Origin: Microbacterium sp. EYE_78
GTDB taxonomy: Bacteria; Actinomycetota; Actinomycetes; Actinomycetales; Microbacteriaceae
Direction of reading: 5' to 3'
Assembly (NCBI RefSeq): GCF_023149035.1
Contig: NZ_JAHXMY010000001.1
Location: 558,001-622,000 of the forward strand
DNA: 64,000 nt
The first letter of the stretch is position 1, and every line of letters starts with the position of its first letter. Below are positions 2,486 through 23,026 of this stretch, piece after piece. The position numbers and the translations under genes were made by a program. Below the pieces are notes generated by a model, which saw only the letters and a program-made list of their open reading frames with translations, was not told the origin of the DNA and made no database searches.

Positions 2486-3537
2486 GCCGAGACCTCCCCG
2501 ATGACCCGTGCGACGGTCTTCCATTGCCGCTGCACCGTGAATCGTGCCCGCACGTCGTCTCTCGCGCGCTCCCCCATCGACCGACGTCGCCCGTCGTCGC
2601 GCAGGAGCTCCGTGACGGTGCCGGCGAGCGCCTCGCAGTCGCCCGGCGGCACCAGCTCGCCGGTCGACCCGGGCACGACGTAGTCGCGCATCGCAGCGGA
2701 GTCCGTTGTCACCGTGGCCGCGCCCATCGCCATCGCCTCGAGGACGACCGTCTGACCGCTCGGGTAGGCCGGCGCTGTGGTGGTGGTCACGACGAGGTCA
2801 GCGCCGTGCAGCAACGCGCGGTAGTCCGCGTCGAAGACGCTCACGAGCCTGATCCCGGGCGGGATGCGCAGATCGGTGACGTTGCGCGGTCGGCAGGCGA
2901 CGGTCATCGGGATGCCGGTGCGCTCGGCCATGCGGAAGAGGGTGGCGTAGTCCCGCCGCGAATCGCTGCCGACCGCGATGACCCCACCCCCGCCCCTCGG
3001 GCTCCTAAGGCGCCCGGCGTCGAAGTAGTCGACGTCGATCCCGAATGGGACGACACGGATCCGATCGGCCCCGACTCCCAAGTACTCCTCGAGGATGACC
3101 GCCTGATTGGCGGAGTAGACGCACACCGCCGCGACCGACGACAACGATGCGCGGACGGACGCGGCGGCCGCCGGCCGATCGAGGACATCCTGGGCGAGCC
3201 AGCACGACACCATGACGTGCGGTGACCGGTCGCGTCGTCGACCCGCCCGGCGTGCGTGAGCGAGACCGGCGTCCTCGAACACGGAGAGCACGGGACCGCG
3301 TGCGCCGCCGCGGGCGGCGCGAGCCAGCATCCATCCCCTCCTCCCCGGGGACAGCCGGCGGATCGCGCCGTCCACGCGCGTCGCCACGTGGCGTCCGAGC
3401 GGGCCGAGACTCGGAACGACCCAGTCCACGTCGAAGTCGGACTGCAGCGCGCCCATGCCGTAGGGCAGCGGTCCCCCGGGCTTGTCCTCGCCGGGCGTCC
3501 GAGGCGGAGTCGCGCAGAGGACCGTCAGCGGGATCAC
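2482..3537 (-). CDS. GT4-family glycosyltransferase
   Basis: A 351-residue GT-B fold enzyme. The C-terminal half carries the family-4 donor-site region with a glutamate-containing motif (VVLEAMAMGAATVTTD, about residue 265) followed by PGSTGELVPPGD, typical of retaining NDP-sugar transferases. The N-terminus is glycine/proline-rich around residues 12-28, as expected for the acceptor-side loop. It is presumably cytoplasmic and adds one sugar to a lipid-linked repeat unit. The GTG start at 3537 overlaps the previous gene's stop (GTGA). Donor and acceptor cannot be read from sequence. Confidence 0.85.
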   Translation of the reverse strand: MIPLTVLCATPPRTPGEDKPGGPLPYGMGALQSDFDVDWVVPSLGPLGRHVATRVDGAIRRLSPGRRGWMLARAARGGARGPVLSVFEDAGLAHARRAGRRRDRSPHVMVSCWLAQDVLDRPAAAASVRASLSSVAAVCVYSANQAVILEEYLGVGADRIRVVPFGIDVDYFDAGRLRSPRGGGGVIAVGSDSRRDYATLFRMAERTGIPMTVACRPRNVTDLRIPPGIRLVSVFDADYRALLHGADLVVTTTTAPAYPSGQTVVLEAMAMGAATVTTDSAAMRDYVVPGSTGELVPPGDCEALAGTVTELLRDDGRRRSMGERARDDVRARFTVQRQWKTVARVIGEVSA

Positions 3538-4688
3538 CGACGCACCTGCTGGGCGGAGGCGGCCAGCACGTGCGTGCGAACCGCATGGACGAAGTCGGGC
3601 GTGCGGTGCAGCCGCAGCACCTCGTCACGGCCGCGCCGGCCCATGCGAGCGGCCTCCTCCGGGTCGTCGCGCAGACGCTCGATTGCCGCGCGCAGCTCCT
3701 GGACGTCCCCCGGGGTCACATAGAGCCCCGTCTCGCCGTGCCGGATGACGTCCACCTGTCCCTCCGTGCGGCTGGTGATGACAGCGCGACCCATCGCCAT
3801 CGCCTCGAGGATGACGCTGATTCCGGCATTGTTCTCCGACTCGACGAGCGGGACGACCACGACGAATGCCGACGCGTACGCCTCCCGGAGCGCGGGCGGC
3901 TCGAGCGGACCGACCTGGATGCCGTCCGCCGCAACGAGTGCGTCGCGGGCATCGACCAGCCGGGTGCGGACGCCGTCGAAGGTGCCCAGCAGGTTCGCCG
4001 CGACGATCGTCGGCACACCGAGAGCCGCCACCGCCGCCATCAGTGTCGGAAAATCGCGCTGGGTCTCGCCCGCTGAGACGACGGGGCGCTGACGGGGATC
4101 GACCATCGACTCCTGCGGCGCGAAGAACTGCTCGTCGACGGGATGCTCGATGCGGTGCACCTGCTCGGGAGCGAAGCCGACGCGGTCCACCGCGACGCGC
4201 GCCTGCACGCTGCTCCAGGTCAGGACGTCGTCCACGCCCGAGCGGACGATCCGCAGCGGCACCCGCACGATCGGCTTCGACACCCAGTCCAGGATCGCGA
4301 CGTGTCGTGGACGCCGGCGCCGTAGACACAGCGTCCCCGCGACGCCGACCGTGTACTTCTCCGCCCAGGTCAGGATGACGTCGTAGTCCTTCGCGCGCCG
4401 CGATGCTTCCAGTGCGAGCGCGATGAACATGGGCAGGCGGCGCAGGAAGGTCCCGCGCAGGCCCGGGAGCGCGCGGATGTCGGACTCGCCAAGCAGATCG
4501 AAGCCGAACGCCTCCTCGACGAGCACGCGCCGCGGCGCAGCACCCGCCGACTCCTGGGCCCGTCGCTCCGCGCGCGAGATCGCGGCGCGGCCTTCGGTGC
4601 GCACGTAGAGCGCGCGGACGCCGACGGCAGCGTCCCCCGCCTCGTTCCCCAAGTGGGCGCGCAAACGCCCGTCCCCCAAAAAGCTCAC
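3534..4688 (-). CDS. GT4-family glycosyltransferase, first gene of the wzz-wzy operon
   Basis: A GT-B family 4 glycosyltransferase of 384 residues from the start chosen here. The C-terminal domain shows ENNAGISVILEAMAMG, with the donor-binding glutamates, and then HGETGLYVTPGD. The start is uncertain: GTG at 4706 is in frame but has no ribosome site, whereas GTG at 4688 has GGGGA six bases upstream. A TATAGT box on the same strand at 4722-4727 would place the mRNA start near 4715. The first 20 codons contain further GGGGA/GGGGGA repeats like those before other polysaccharide genes here, so the true start could be still further in. It opens the five-gene coupled unit that ends in the polymerase. 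Confidence 0.8.
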   Translation of the reverse strand: MSFLGDGRLRAHLGNEAGDAAVGVRALYVRTEGRAAISRAERRAQESAGAAPRRVLVEEAFGFDLLGESDIRALPGLRGTFLRRLPMFIALALEASRRAKDYDVILTWAEKYTVGVAGTLCLRRRRPRHVAILDWVSKPIVRVPLRIVRSGVDDVLTWSSVQARVAVDRVGFAPEQVHRIEHPVDEQFFAPQESMVDPRQRPVVSAGETQRDFPTLMAAVAALGVPTIVAANLLGTFDGVRTRLVDARDALVAADGIQVGPLEPPALREAYASAFVVVVPLVESENNAGISVILEAMAMGRAVITSRTEGQVDVIRHGETGLYVTPGDVQELRAAIERLRDDPEEAARMGRRGRDEVLRLHRTPDFVHAVRTHVLAASAQQVRR

Positions 4689-4808
4689 CGTAGGTCCCCA
4701 AACCACTCGGATCGTGGGGCAACTATACCTCCGGCAGGCTCGGTGCGGTAGCCTCGGTCGAGCGGGCCGTCTGGGGACGACTGCCCGATGGGACGCATTT
4801 TTGGGGGA
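4633..4808. repeat. Cluster of GGGGA/GGGGGA repeats at a divergent polysaccharide promoter
   Basis: On the minus strand TCCCC/TCCCCC complements begin at 4633, 4646, 4672 and 4695, that is 13, 26 and 23 bases apart. On the plus strand GGGGA ends at 4777 and GGGGGA at 4808. Both transcription units carry the same 11-mer TTTTTGGGGGA on their own coding strand. One copy on each side sits where the Shine-Dalgarno sequence should be. Matching clusters occur at 15538-15578 and 22203-22228. Confidence 0.55.
4722..4727 (-). promoter_or_regulatory. Candidate -10 box of the 4688-to-1 operon
   Basis: TATAGT on the minus strand is the only A/T-rich hexamer in the divergent region between the two glycosyltransferase units. 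No clear -35 is seen 16-18 bases upstream. It would give a leader of about 27 bases before the GTG at 4688. Confidence 0.4.
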
Positions 4809-13476: not shown

Positions 13477-14468
13477 CGCGCGACCGCCATCCGCTCGCCC
13501 GCGACCTCGGCGCGGAGGGGTCGCCACCATTCGACGAGTCGCTGCAGCCCTTCGTCGAGTCCGATCCGCGCCTCGAAGCCGAGGTCACGGCGTGCCGCCG
13601 ACGTGTCGGCGAGGCGTCGGACGACGCCGTTCACCGCGCGTTCGGGGCCGTGCTCGAGCGACAGATCGGAGCCCATGACGCGCAGCAGCGCATGCGCGAG
13701 TTCCGCGAGGCTCGTCTCCGTGCCGCTCGCGATGTTGTACGTGCCCTCGACGACGTCGCTGCGGGCGGCGAGGACGTTGGCACGGGCGATGTCGGGCACG
13801 CAGACGAAGTCCATCGTCTGGCTGCCGTCGCCGAAGATGAGCGGCGGCTGTCCGTCGGCGATCCGCTCCATCCACCGCACGAGGACTTCGGTGTAGAGCC
13901 CGTGCACGTCCATCCGCGGTCCGTAGACGTTGAAGTACCGCAGCAGCACGTAGTCGAGCCCCTGCATCGCGCGGAAACTGCGGACCAGCCCCTCGTTGAA
14001 GGTCTTGGCGGCGCCGTAGATCGTGTCGTTGTTCTCGTGGTGGTGGCGCTCAGTCGTCGGGAATTCCTCGGCCATGCCGTAGACGGAGGCACTGGATGCC
14101 GCGATGAGCTTGCCGACCCGGTGCCGCGCAGCCGCCTCGACGACGTTGAACGTCCCGTCGACGAGGACTTCGAGCGCGAGTCGGGGCTCTTCGGCGCACT
14201 GCGTGATGCGGATCGCGGCCTGGTGGAAGACCACGTCCTTCTCGGCGACGAGGTCGTCGACCAGACGCGCGTCCCGGATGTCGCCGTCGATCAGCGAGAC
14301 CCGGCCGGACGCGAGTGCCGGCTCGAGGTTGCTCCGACGACCGCGCACCAGGTTGTCGAGGACGTCGACCGAGGCGACGCCTTCGGCGAGCAGGTCGTCG
14401 ACGAGGGTCGACCCGATCGTGCCGGCGCCTCCGGTCACGAGGACGCGAGCTCCTTCGAGCCGGGTCAT
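13473..14468 (-). CDS. NAD-dependent sugar epimerase/dehydratase (extended SDR)
   Basis: A 331-residue extended short-chain dehydrogenase. The Rossmann GxxGxxG lies at residues 13-19, and Tyr151 and Lys155 form the YxxxK catalytic pair, preceded by the serine in AASSASVYG. VLLRYFNVYGPR is the usual substrate-side signature of UDP-glucose 4-epimerase relatives. Family members act on nucleotide sugars, so 4-epimerisation of a UDP-HexNAc or UDP-hexuronate is plausible. Starts and ends are coupled by ATGA/GTGA overlaps within the eight-gene operon. I cannot separate epimerase from decarboxylase or dehydratase roles by eye. Confidence 0.85.
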   Translation of the reverse strand: MTRLEGARVLVTGGAGTIGSTLVDDLLAEGVASVDVLDNLVRGRRSNLEPALASGRVSLIDGDIRDARLVDDLVAEKDVVFHQAAIRITQCAEEPRLALEVLVDGTFNVVEAAARHRVGKLIAASSASVYGMAEEFPTTERHHHENNDTIYGAAKTFNEGLVRSFRAMQGLDYVLLRYFNVYGPRMDVHGLYTEVLVRWMERIADGQPPLIFGDGSQTMDFVCVPDIARANVLAARSDVVEGTYNIASGTETSLAELAHALLRVMGSDLSLEHGPERAVNGVVRRLADTSAARRDLGFEARIGLDEGLQRLVEWWRPLRAEVAGERMAVAR

Positions 14469-15532
14469 GCCGCCACCTCCTCGGCGGGTACGAGACGGGG
14501 GACGGGATGCGGGGCGCCGAACGCGGCGAGGCTGCCCGCCGCCGCATCCAGCACCGACAGCACCCGAAGGCCCGCGGCACCGCTCGTGCGCGACGCGCGG
14601 CGCTCGCGAATCGCGGCCGCGAACTCGGTCACGACACCGCCGAGTGCTTCACGTTCCTCGAGAGCGGGCGCCCAGGTGTCACCGAGGCGGTACGAGACGT
14701 TCGCCGCGCGACGGTCCTTGGCGGTCGCCTTCGACACGGTGTTCACGTCGACGCCCCGGTCGTAGACGCTCAGGCGCTGCTGCGGGTTCAGGTCGTCCCA
14801 GACGAGCGTGCGGCGTGTGCCCCCGATCACCATGCGGCGGATCTTCGTGGGGCTCAGCCAGTTGACGTGCACGTGCGCCATCGCGCCGCACTCGAGGGGC
14901 ATCGCCATGTAGCCGATGCACGACTTGCCGGTCCCGAGCGGGTCGGATCCGTGCGCCGAGACCGAGGTGGCCGCGAGTCCACCCGGAAGCACGAAGTCCA
15001 TGATCGACAGGTCGTGGGGAGCGAGATCCCAGAAGACGTCGACGTCGGGCTGGATCAGGCCGAGGTTGATGCGCACGCTGTCCACAAAGAGGATGTCGCC
15101 CAGGGCGCCCTTCGCCACGAGCTCGCGCATCTTCAGCACCGCCGGCGTGTAGCAGTAGGTGTGGTCGGCCATGAGCACGAGTCCCTGCTCCTGCGCCCGG
15201 CGGACCATCTCGCCGCCGCGGTCGCGGGAGTCGGCGAGGGGCTTCTCGACCATCACGTGCTTGCCGGCGTCGAGCGCGGCGAGCACGATGCGGTGGTGCG
15301 TCCGCGCCGGGGTCGCGACGGCGACGGCGTCGATCATCGGGTCCGACAGGACGGACTCCAGGTCGCTCGTGACGGGCGCCCCGCCGACGGCGTCGGCGAC
15401 CTTGCGGGCCCGGTCGATGTCCAGGTCGCAGATGGCCGCGAGGTTCCAGTCACGGCTCGCGCGGAGGTTCCGTGCGAGATTCGGTCCCCAGTAGCCCGCG
15501 CCGATGACGGCGACGTTGAGCCTTCCATTCAT
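14465..15532 (-). CDS. Gfo/Idh/MocA-family nucleotide-sugar dehydrogenase, WbpB/WlbA-like
   Basis: A 355-residue oxidoreductase with an N-terminal NAD(P) fold (GAGYWG at residues 11-16), the EKPLADS motif with Lys97, and the catalytic-region Asp169 and His173 in DLAPHDLS. Relatives such as WlbA oxidise C-3 of UDP-GlcNAc uronate, giving the keto substrate for a WbpE-type aminotransferase, which is encoded three genes downstream. ATG at 15532 has GGGGGA just upstream; the open frame from 15580 would remove the leader. It is the first gene of the unit running to 7103. Regulation is suggested by four GGGGA repeats in the 63-base leader region. Confidence 0.83.
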   Translation of the reverse strand: MNGRLNVAVIGAGYWGPNLARNLRASRDWNLAAICDLDIDRARKVADAVGGAPVTSDLESVLSDPMIDAVAVATPARTHHRIVLAALDAGKHVMVEKPLADSRDRGGEMVRRAQEQGLVLMADHTYCYTPAVLKMRELVAKGALGDILFVDSVRINLGLIQPDVDVFWDLAPHDLSIMDFVLPGGLAATSVSAHGSDPLGTGKSCIGYMAMPLECGAMAHVHVNWLSPTKIRRMVIGGTRRTLVWDDLNPQQRLSVYDRGVDVNTVSKATAKDRRAANVSYRLGDTWAPALEEREALGGVVTEFAAAIRERRASRTSGAAGLRVLSVLDAAAGSLAAFGAPHPVPRLVPAEEVAA

Positions 15533-15537
15533 TGCAT

Positions 15538-15578
15538 TCCCCCAAATGTCCCCATGTGTGTCCCCGAAGGGCTTCCCC
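15538..15578 (-). repeat. Four GGGGA direct repeats upstream of the eight-gene polysaccharide operon
   Basis: On the coding (minus) strand GGGGA or GGGGGA complements begin at plus-strand positions 15538, 15549, 15561 and 15574, spaced 11, 12 and 13 bases. The copy nearest the ATG doubles as the ribosome site. The intergenic space is only 63 bases, so the array fills most of it. Spacing near one helical turn fits direct-repeat binding by a dimeric regulator, or a series of sites on the RNA. Confidence 0.6.
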
Positions 15579-15595
15579 AATGCGCGGCGTCGCCG

Positions 15596-21270
<5,675 letters not shown>

Positions 21271-21274
<4 letters not shown>

Positions 21275-22218
21275 GCGGTCACCCCCTGCGCGCCGCGGCT
21301 CGACAGGTCCCGCTCCCAGGTCTGCGAGGCCGTGTCGCGGAGCGCGAGCCGGACCCGCGCGGCCACCGTGAGTCCCACGTACCAGCCGGCGTCCACCGCG
21401 TCGCGGATGCCGCGCACCGCCCGCAGGAGTGAGGCCACGCGTCCGGCGCCGGTGGCCCCGGCATCCTCTGCGCTCTGCTGCACGTGCCCGCGGTGCTGTC
21501 GCATGAGGACGCCGAGGAGCGTCCGGGTGTCGCGCGGCGTCCGCACCCGCATCGGCGCGGTGGCGACGACGCGCTTCTCGTCCTCGGCGAAGAGGGCGTC
21601 GAACCAGCAGTCGTCGGCCGTCAGCGTCGGGAAGGCGGCGAACCGCGCGTGCCCGACCTCGTTGGTCGCGTACCCGCCGGCGCCCCACATGCGACGGGTC
21701 GGGGCGGCGATGCGCGCTCGCGCCCGGTAGTAGGCGCGGACGGGAAGGCTCGCCCCGGAGATGTCGTACCCGAAGCACGGACGGGCCGCGAGGACGGTCG
21801 GCTCCGCGAGCGCGGCGAACGCGGCGGCGACGGCCGCGGGCTCGACTTCGATGTCCGCGTCGAGGTAGAGACGCGGCCAGCTCGTGGCGGTGCTGTCGCC
21901 GAGGTTGAGGCCGGCGACCTTCGATGCCTCCGCCGTCTCGACGACGGTCACGCCCGCGAACCGCCGCGCGATGTCGGCGGTCTCGTCCGTGCAGCCGTTG
22001 CACGCCACGATGACCTCGACCCCGGCGTCCACGAGCGGCGCGAGGTGCGCGAGCGTGCGCGCGATCACCGCTGCTTCGTCGTGCGCCGGAATGACGACGG
22101 CGCCCGCAAGGTGCGCGGTCGTCGCGAGCGGCTCGGCGTCGAATCCGTCGACGATGACACCGTCGACAGCGCGTGCCGGCCGGTCCGCACGTGCGGCGGA
22201 TGTCCCCAGAGTCCCCAT
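21271..22218 (-). CDS. GT2-family glycosyltransferase
   Basis: A 315-residue GT-A fold enzyme. [16 protein letters not shown] and [12 protein letters not shown] form the nucleotide-binding part, and [10 protein letters not shown] holds the DxD metal-binding aspartates. The C-terminal third is alpha-helical and basic without clear membrane helices. ATG at 22218 is preceded by GGGGAAGAGC as ribosome site; the open frame runs back to 22557 but has no other good start. It is the first gene of a two-gene unit with the large DUF4082 protein, joined by GTGA, so the sugar it adds may concern that protein or the polymer it binds. Confidence 0.83.
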
Positions 22219-22337
22219 GCTCTTCCCCAAGTCGCCCACACCCCGAGCAAGGAATGCGAGCCATAGACCGGCGCCGTCGACGATCCCACTCGTCGCCGTC
22301 GCGTCCGCCTCCCCAGGCGAGCGCAACCGGTGTCCCC
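22203..22337 (-). repeat. GGGGA repeats around the start of the GT2-DUF4082 unit
   Basis: Minus-strand GGGGA complements begin at 22203, 22212 and 22224 (9 and 12 bases apart), straddling the ATG at 22218. Two further copies lie at 22310 and 22333, 23 bases apart. They lie on the coding strand, as at the other polysaccharide units. Confidence 0.5.
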
Positions 22338-22372
22338 GCGGCAATGTAAGCAGATCGAGGCGCCGGGCACAA

Positions 22373-22378
22373 TACAAT
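22373..22378 (+). promoter_or_regulatory. -10 box for the WbpD-like gene
   Basis: TACAAT on the plus strand would start transcription near 22385 and give a leader of about 42 bases. No good -35 is seen. A TACATT on the opposite strand at 22343-22348 may serve the divergent GT2 gene. Confidence 0.5.
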
Positions 22379-22426
22379 CCGACACACGGATGCCGGGGGC
22401 ATCCGCATCCGATGGAGGAGGCCGTC

Positions 22427-23026
22427 ATGTCCGGCACCGCAGCGACCGTCCACCCGTCCGCCGACCTCGACGACGATGTCGAGCTGGGCGACGGCACCCG
22501 GGTCTGGCATCTCGCCCAAGTGCGGGCGGGCGCGCGGGTGGGAGCGGACTGCAACATCGGGCGCGGCGCCTACATCGGTCCCGGCGTCGTGCTCGGCCGC
22601 GCCTGCAAGGTGCAGAACTACGCGCTCGTCTACGAGCCGGCGATCGTCGGGGATGGGGTCTTCATCGGTCCGGCAGTCGTCTTCACCAACGACGAATTCC
22701 CTCGTGCGGCGAACCCAGACGGCTCGCTGAAGGGATCGGACGACTGGCACGCCGTCGGCGTGGTGGTCGATGACGGGGCGTCGATCGGGGCGCGGGCGGT
22801 GTGCATCGCGCCGGTGCGCATCGGCGCCTGGGCGCTCGTCGCCGCGGGCGCGGTCGTGACGAGGGACGTCCCGGCGCATGCGCTCGTCGCGGGCGTGCCC
22901 GCGAAGCGCGTCGGCTGGGTCGGCCGCACCGGGCGGCCCCTCACGTCCGCCGGCGACGATGTGTGGGTGTGCCCCGAGACCGGTGAGCGGTACGCGCCCG
23001 ACGGCGACGGACTGCGCCTCGTCTGA
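22427..23026 (+). CDS. Hexapeptide-repeat N-acetyltransferase, WbpD/WlbB-like
   Basis: A 199-residue left-handed beta-helix acetyltransferase. It begins [20 protein letters not shown], then [19 protein letters not shown] coils, and the [12 protein letters not shown] and [11 protein letters not shown] segments that mark WbpD/WlbB enzymes, which acetylate the 3-amino group of UDP-2-acetamido-3-amino-2,3-dideoxy-glucuronate. The C-terminus ends with a short extra region containing [12 protein letters not shown] at 22427 has GGAGGAGG upstream; ATG 22412 is also in frame. It stands alone, divergent from the GT2-DUF4082 unit, but completes the dehydrogenase-aminotransferase pair of the main operon. 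Confidence 0.85.

Follow-up and report, generated by a model that had tools for sequence, protein, structure and literature searches.

The closest described counterparts of the leaders analyzed here are the targets of the mycobacterial 6C small RNA and its homologue B11 (RF01066), RNAs with C-rich loops, the last of them in the terminator hairpin, whose targets the available portions of two reports describe as G-tracts beside the start codons of envelope genes (PMC12395582, PMC10470900). As given there, the C-rich terminator loop of B11 in M. marinum pairs with G-tracts near the start and represses lipooligosaccharide genes (PMC12395582), and B11 in M. abscessus exerts a similar repression via a G-tract in the 5'-UTR (PMC10470900). 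G-tract targets of 6C/B11 RNAs are, in this sense, already known. The Microbacterium leaders have their G-tracts in the same position but differ in form: they hold arrays of at least three short UGGGGA copies, often borne in loops and, in the leaders of sugar-transferase genes, combined with an overlapping upstream open reading frame (uORF), whereas the mycobacterial reports, in the portions considered, describe G-tracts and not such arrays.

Other systems offer partial likenesses. In Csr/Rsm networks, in which CsrA is joined by the decoys CsrB/RsmZ, GGA loops lie over the starts of biofilm, polysaccharide and pilus genes and the decoy is a multi-hairpin, terminated array RNA; the Microbacterium leaders carry UGGGGA instead of ANGGA, and CsrA is absent from the genome under study. 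JUMPstart/ops leaders, which work with RfaH, are likewise a short leader element common to polysaccharide operons, but they contain no repeat array and act on transcript elongation, whereas the UGGGGA leaders are repeat arrays. The DNA sites of MraZ and of OmpR/PhoB-type proteins are also direct repeats of short words (G-rich for MraZ), but at fixed spacing, whereas the spacing of the UGGGGA leaders is variable and RNA hairpins are predicted in them. A literature search, with most subscription journals outside its scope, returned no description of UGGGGA arrays that are displayed in loops, coupled through a uORF and accompanied by a possible sponge.

The window, by which we mean the whole 64,000-base stretch of DNA analyzed (G000:C1:558001-622000), comes from a Microbacterium genome of 3,104,878 bases (G000). 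Its main leader (15533..15580, minus strand) precedes a Gfo/Idh/MocA oxidoreductase gene (14465..15532, minus strand, Pfam PF01408), the first gene of the main unit, with its ATG at 15532. The original prediction had described four GGGGA copies on the coding strand, 11, 12 and 13 bases apart, filling a 63-base gap and ending at the Shine-Dalgarno place, and all of this is borne out. The minus-strand text before the gene, TTGGGGAAGCCCTTCGGGGACACACATGGGGACATTTGGGGGAATGCAATG, holds GGGGA at 15574-15578, 15561-15565 and 15549-15553 and GGGGGA at 15538-15543; the GGGGA words start at 15578, 15565, 15553 and 15542, in steps of 13, 12 and 11 bases in reading order, 63 bases separate the gene from the upstream ORF, which ends at 15596, and the final GGGGGA stands 5 bases upstream of the ATG. 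The predicted fold of this leader is weak (-13.1 kcal/mol).

Similar clusters lie elsewhere in the window, in the sense of the gene that follows. Four minus-strand copies (4699, 4676, 4650 and 4637; 4633..4702) are found before or at the 5' end of a family-4 glycosyltransferase gene (3534-4706, minus), whose true start codon is uncertain, with 4604 the first in-frame start past the repeats; upstream of them, TATAGT at 4723..4728 on the same strand, picked out by eye, may be a -10 box. Two plus-strand copies (4773 and 4804; 4772..4808) precede a WsaF-like glycosyltransferase gene that probably starts at ATG 4812, with 4788 as an in-frame alternative. Three minus-strand copies (22228, 22216 and 22207; 22203..22230) cluster where a family-2 glycosyltransferase gene begins (21271-22218, minus; PF00535 found in the ORF 21271-22557), the middle copy lying 3' of the ATG inside a predicted hairpin, AGAG-CAUGGGGA-CUCU. 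The claim that the motif recurs at other polysaccharide units therefore stands as regards the clusters at 4633-4808 and 22203-22228, with the amendment that the latter, with an ATG among its copies, belongs to the family-2 glycosyltransferase start and does not lie directly at the gene for the DUF4082/DMFA2_C secreted protein (15596..21274, minus, GTG 21274 the likely start). Further copies occur to the left of the window (L043, G000:C1:538001-558000), before a priming sugar transferase gene (PF02397; L043:9118-10587) and 3' of a gene (L043:3127-5877) whose 916-aa product carries a LuxR/GerE domain at its C-terminus. By eye, this protein has a degenerate P-loop-like GPAGSDKS, and it finds matches at 1e-20 in 32 of 99 genomes of the genus.

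To the question whether the motif is equally frequent elsewhere in the same genome, the answer from a sample of that genome is no. The strict pattern GGGGA-N(4-10)-GGGGA-N(4-10)-GGGGA has six matches in the 3,104,878 bases, three of them (two overlapping) in leaders of the window, and none when reversed. A 464-kb sample, made up of the window and 20 stretches of the same genome, was divided into a 43-kb polysaccharide region and the other 421 kb, and the motif is concentrated in the former: TTTGGGG occurs nine times in the region and five times outside (reversed word, 0 and 8), TTGGGGA 10 and 16 times (reversed, 1 and 14), and pairs of TGGGGA at most 31 bases apart form four clusters in the region and one outside (reversed, 0 and 0), counts that are descriptive, the bounds of the region having been chosen after the clusters were known. 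A looser GGGGA triple is by itself non-specific, with many matches over 78 genomes of the order and an equally high reversed control in several of them. The pattern TTGGGGA-N(2-28)-TGGGGA-N(2-28)-TGGGGA (hereafter the three-copy pattern) is present in 53 of 366 genomes of the genus, and a pattern scan of a wider named genome collection yielded at least 80 loci, mostly outside Microbacterium. Rfam searches returned one tRNA and no known leader family in the window and L043, and two tRNAs, one sub-threshold match (E<=0.1) and no leader family above its gathering score in L263, L484, L259, L275 and L261.

The predicted link of the motif to polysaccharide and DUF4082-type genes holds in other genomes as well. 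A Pfam scan of 20 out of 45 downstream ORFs found seven priming sugar transferases (PF02397), two DMFA2_C proteins (one with DUF4082, like that of the window), three secreted Rax2/DUF5122 propellers, and, as pilus components, a type II/IV secretion ATPase with an MshEN domain and a pilin-type N-methylation protein; the rest were a SpaA-domain protein, a cytidylyltransferase, a DUF6492 protein, an AMP-binding enzyme and two proteins of no family. The sugar-transferase leaders have an additional feature in common. In a set of 12 (11 pattern-matching leaders from 14 candidate loci, L150, L157 and L043 being non-matching, with the G000 leader in L043 added by hand), every one contains a uORF of 28-35 codons whose stop overlaps the gene start (ATGA or GTGA) and whose own start codon stands 3' of the copies. 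Around that start codon, 11 of the 12 have a hairpin whose stem is 3 bp or longer, and AUGGGG lies in a predicted loop in 8.

A potential partner for these copies is encoded in the same genomes. A 6C-type small RNA lies upstream of tadA in most of the genomes inspected there, and a covariance model (R1) built from 37 such tadA-linked RNAs matches 327 of 366 genomes. The G000 RNA (C1:42696-42786, minus, upstream of tadA) has two hairpins with C-rich loops, containing CCCCCC and UUUCCCCCAAU, of which the second is the terminator, and the tail TTCCTCTTTTCC. Because it scores 36.2 bits with the Rfam 6C model (RF01066), below the gathering cut-off of 47, we call it a 6C homologue and not a formal member of the family; the corresponding scores are 42.8 in G011 and 52.2 for the homologue in G087. 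It was found via synteny with tadA, the Rfam 6C model run over the whole G000 genome having missed it (143 of 1926 candidates scored) and the expression TCCCCN{6,28}TTTTTT having given no match in G000. Between the 6C terminator and tadA, a CTCCCCAG-like word is recurrent (L205, L210, L214 and others).

As in the targets of 6C/B11, a G-tract complementary to a C-rich loop lies near the ribosome-binding site of the main unit. The complement of the G000 terminator loop, TTGGGGGA, occupies 15538..15545 (minus), 5 bases before the ATG, and makes nine complementary bases with the next base; this nine-base complement, UUGGGGGAA, coincides with the main leader's final copy and ends four bases before ATG 15532. 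In the 464-kb sample, all four occurrences of TTTGGGGGA and four of the five of TTGGGGGA fall within the polysaccharide region, as do none of the nine of the reversed word AGGGGGTT. Ranking sites by duplex energy with the 6C loop was not discriminating, the eight best rows lying outside the polysaccharide region, and 6C is similarly present in genomes with and without the three-copy pattern (50/53 vs 277/313, p=0.33).

Within this single genus, the 6C terminator loop falls into types according to the base preceding the C-run, which may be U, G or A (e.g., L177, L193, L222). Pairing of the final A in GGGGA calls for a U at this place, which is found in 48 of the 50 typed genomes that carry the three-copy pattern. 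Some of these 48 look like chance or coding matches; the two exceptions, G320 (G) and G342 (A), are low-complexity repeat matches. When 99 genomes were drawn evenly, the pattern occurred in 13 of 66 with a U loop, in 0 of 18 with a G or A loop and in 1 of 12 without 6C, namely G043, where the match is a DnaA-box-like stretch; G005, G016 and G042 were untyped in this draw, the loop of G085 was read by eye, and some of the 12 were assigned from a missing covariance match. Two-copy matches per genome, relative to the control, numbered 2.15/0.89 for U loops, 1.33/0.94 for G or A loops and 1.25/0.83 without 6C. The association between loop type and leader is borderline: 13/66 vs 0/18 gives p=0.061, pooling with the genomes without 6C gives p=0.008 (G043 dropped) or 0.057 (G043 counted), and the two-copy matches of U vs G/A loops give p=0.048 (one-sided), all in tests that overstate independence, with G/A loops falling into few loop types and clade structure uncorrected. 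The length of the G-run does not track that of the C-run, G098 having eight C yet GGGG targets, and inspection by eye of 20 LuxR-anchored loci gave no clear case of compensatory GGGGC or GGGGU leaders for GCCCC or ACCCC loops.

As read from the sequences, the copies recur, lie in sense orientation close to start codons and are accompanied by predicted hairpins in spacers and around loops, on stems specific to each genome, and G000 has a 6C homologue. We propose, with a probability of roughly one half, that the repeats are a recurrent 5'-leader element of Microbacterium whose UGGGGA copies pair with the 6C terminator loop, blocking translation of polysaccharide and surface genes. The leaders would be transcribed as drawn; their UGGGGA motifs are predicted to stand open beside start codons, either within short linkers or in the loops of hairpins; GGGGA of the leader would pair with UCCCC of the 6C loop, presumably to repressive effect, and several copies may raise avidity. 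In the sugar-transferase leaders, a block of the uORF would also shut the gene, via translational coupling. We favor pairing with 6C because the small RNA is present, its loop matches, there is a mycobacterial precedent, and the leaders fade where the loop has no U.

Regulation at the RNA level, one of two options that the original prediction had raised, is supported by the folding of the leaders. Among distinct spacers of at least 14 bases, 21 of 58 form better folds than single-base shuffles do (p<0.05), and 12 of 58 at p<0.01, in a test of 53 of the 72 three-copy rows that omitted overlapping rows, near copies (G218, G331, G357, G393), five low-complexity rows of G342 and one row of G031. 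The stems of these spacer hairpins differ by genome, for example GCGGGT-ACCCGC in G025, GTGGGC-GCTCAC in G161, GCAGGC-GCCTGC in G258 and GCGAGC-GCTCGC in G013. Moreover, in a set of 50 genus leaders, which leaves aside near copies (L143, L158, L171), leaders that look coding (L148, L155, L162), the DnaA-box-like L272 and the matches of some further genomes, the predicted unpaired probability of GGGG was 0.51, against 0.34 with the surroundings shuffled, and it was the greater of the two in 45 leaders. For the window's three leaders taken singly, exposure was not significant (0.12, 0.15 and 0.28 of shuffles do equally well), and the predicted fold of the 4637-4699 cluster lacks a hairpin that visual inspection suggests between its second and third copies. 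An alignment of the leaders (A2) misaligned hairpin loops of unequal length and gave no pair counts.

The copies themselves are often displayed in loops. Perfect stems of at least 5 bp enclose 23 of 187 copies (mean 3.4 and maximum 9 in 200 shuffles), and those of at least 4 bp enclose 39 of 187 (12.4 expected); the exact hexaloop YGGGGA occurs 13 times on stems of at least 4 bp, where 0.9 are expected, and 11 times on stems of at least 5 bp, where 0.2 are. Two related leaders carry the same loop on different stems, TACGGA-UGGGGA-TCCGTA (L169, G107) and GCGGA-UGGGGA-TCCGC (L270, G304). In the manner of Csr-type targets, a GGA-type motif, here UGGGGA, is thus predicted in hairpin loops at start codons, and such display of one exact hexaloop on many different stems would also be expected if an RNA-binding protein, CsrA-like in action, read UGGGGA loops near start codons and were titrated by array RNAs. 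We rank this explanation second because 6C leaves both the preceding U and the typical G-run length unexplained: its loops of five to eight C predict neither the U nor an exact preference for four G. A U precedes the G-run in 186 of 207 runs, and exactly four G are found in 191 of 207, both figures being inflated by a search pattern that requires them, in a leader set chosen on TTGGGG-containing clusters and therefore biased in its flank counts. Within this biased sample, a fixed U and a four-G length suit protein recognition, and a regulon of polysaccharide and pili resembles that of Csr. Against such a protein, however, G-runs of four to six are tolerated among the leaders, and the leaders thin out where the 6C loop has no U. 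The candidate search covered CsrA (PF02599) only, which is absent from G000 and likewise from G013, G098, G031, G087, G116 and G121. We consider this reading less probable than 6C pairing. CsrA itself, which is found in 22 of 99 genomes, the carrier G025 included, is rejected as the reader, since PF02599 has no match in G000.

Terminated arrays similar to CsrB would also suit an RNA-binding protein. A homologous stretch in G121 (L263:3803-4140), G312 (L484:3043) and G331 (L483:211) holds nine, seven and four GGGG+A copies, several of them placed in the loops of hairpins; a terminator-like hairpin and a T-run come next. In G121 this array and a nearby sugar-transferase gene are on opposite strands, the array folds 7.3 SD below shuffles (z -7.3), and Rfam gave no match at the stretch in L263 or L484. 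Such a terminated, non-coding UGGGGA array resembles RNAs of the CsrB/RsmZ type and is a possible decoy; multi-hairpin candidates of this kind were found in three genomes, with none identified in G000. Long hairpins with UGGGGA near the tip lie 3' of the LuxR-domain gene in G000 (L043:5888-6040), G087 and G015, and upstream of the sugar transferase in G025, G098 and G031, where the hairpin has 17 bp with one mismatch and UUUGGGGA in its loop. The stems of these UGGGGA-tip hairpins (L043, L122, L123, L259, L261, L275) differ between genomes, and their role may be that of a further decoy or of an attenuator. Additionally, 3' of two TGGGGA copies and upstream of the sugar-transferase leader, a hairpin CGTTGTGCCGT...ACGGCACAACG followed by TGTTT is seen in L259 (~2368, minus), L261 (~2600, minus) and L275 (~1456, plus), possibly an attenuator or the end of a small RNA. 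Tentatively, and with less assurance than for 6C pairing itself, these elements might form a Csr-like network without CsrA, in which UGGGGA-loop leaders coordinate polysaccharide priming, DUF4082 proteins, propellers and pili, 6C reads them by loop-loop pairing and the arrays are sponges.

An RNA G-quadruplex formed by the G-runs and blocking ribosome loading would suit the 35 of 50 leaders that have at least four GGGG runs, and the main leader of the window, which has exactly four runs with short loops. It is nevertheless very unlikely, given that the other 15 leaders have only three GGGG runs, that a quadruplex has no need of asymmetric flanks (T before, A after) and that single copies in hairpin loops do not fit. 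Phase variation through slippage in the G-runs was set aside, the runs being mostly of four.

The original prediction had also considered a DNA-binding regulator of the OmpR/PhoB type, on the strength of a spacing near one helical turn. Direct repeats on one strand are compatible with such a protein, whether OmpR/PhoB-, MraZ- or MalT-like, the GGGGA core is also part of the MalT box, and the gene for a possible reader, the 916-aa LuxR-domain protein, is within the same locus. The orthologous leaders argue otherwise. The motif is not absent from them, both loci examined (G087 and G015) having retained it: the leader at 22203-22228 is preserved there at ~80% identity, and the Gfo/Idh leaders keep their copies at steps of 30/9 and 12/18/12. 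Judged from these sequences, the motif is conserved and its phase is not, because the orthologous leaders hold copies with differing steps. Instead of a constant near-helical spacing, the three orthologous leaders have 13/12/11, 30/9 and 12/18/12, and copies within the clusters lie 9 to 31 bases apart, so the helical phasing fails and a phased OmpR/PhoB-type site is not supported. The copies also extend to the start codon, and hairpins in the spacers and copies displayed in loops are unexpected of a DNA site. The LuxR-domain protein is disfavored as the reader, as G025, G031 and G121 have the three-copy pattern without a match to it at 1e-20. Binding of the repeats by a DNA regulator is therefore highly improbable. 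In G087 and G015 the GT2/DUF4082 stretch (window 15596-22185) is absent and two UGGGGA leaders adjoin, which reflects insertion or loss.

The last main-leader copy, at the Shine-Dalgarno place, would suit the copies being extra ribosome-binding or standby sites that work without a trans factor. We give this very little credence, since GGGGA is a poor anti-Shine-Dalgarno match, the far copies and hairpin display are left unexplained, and within the genome sample the clusters crowd into a single region.

If pairing of UGGGGA leaders with the 6C loop is correct, it would give 6C-type small RNAs a defined target code in actinobacteria beyond mycobacteria, and would mean that Microbacterium switches its exopolysaccharide and surface structures post-transcriptionally, with the array RNA as a sponge for an RNA regulator. 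The combination of a multi-copy, loop-displayed motif with uORF coupling makes this target rule testable by reporter fusions.
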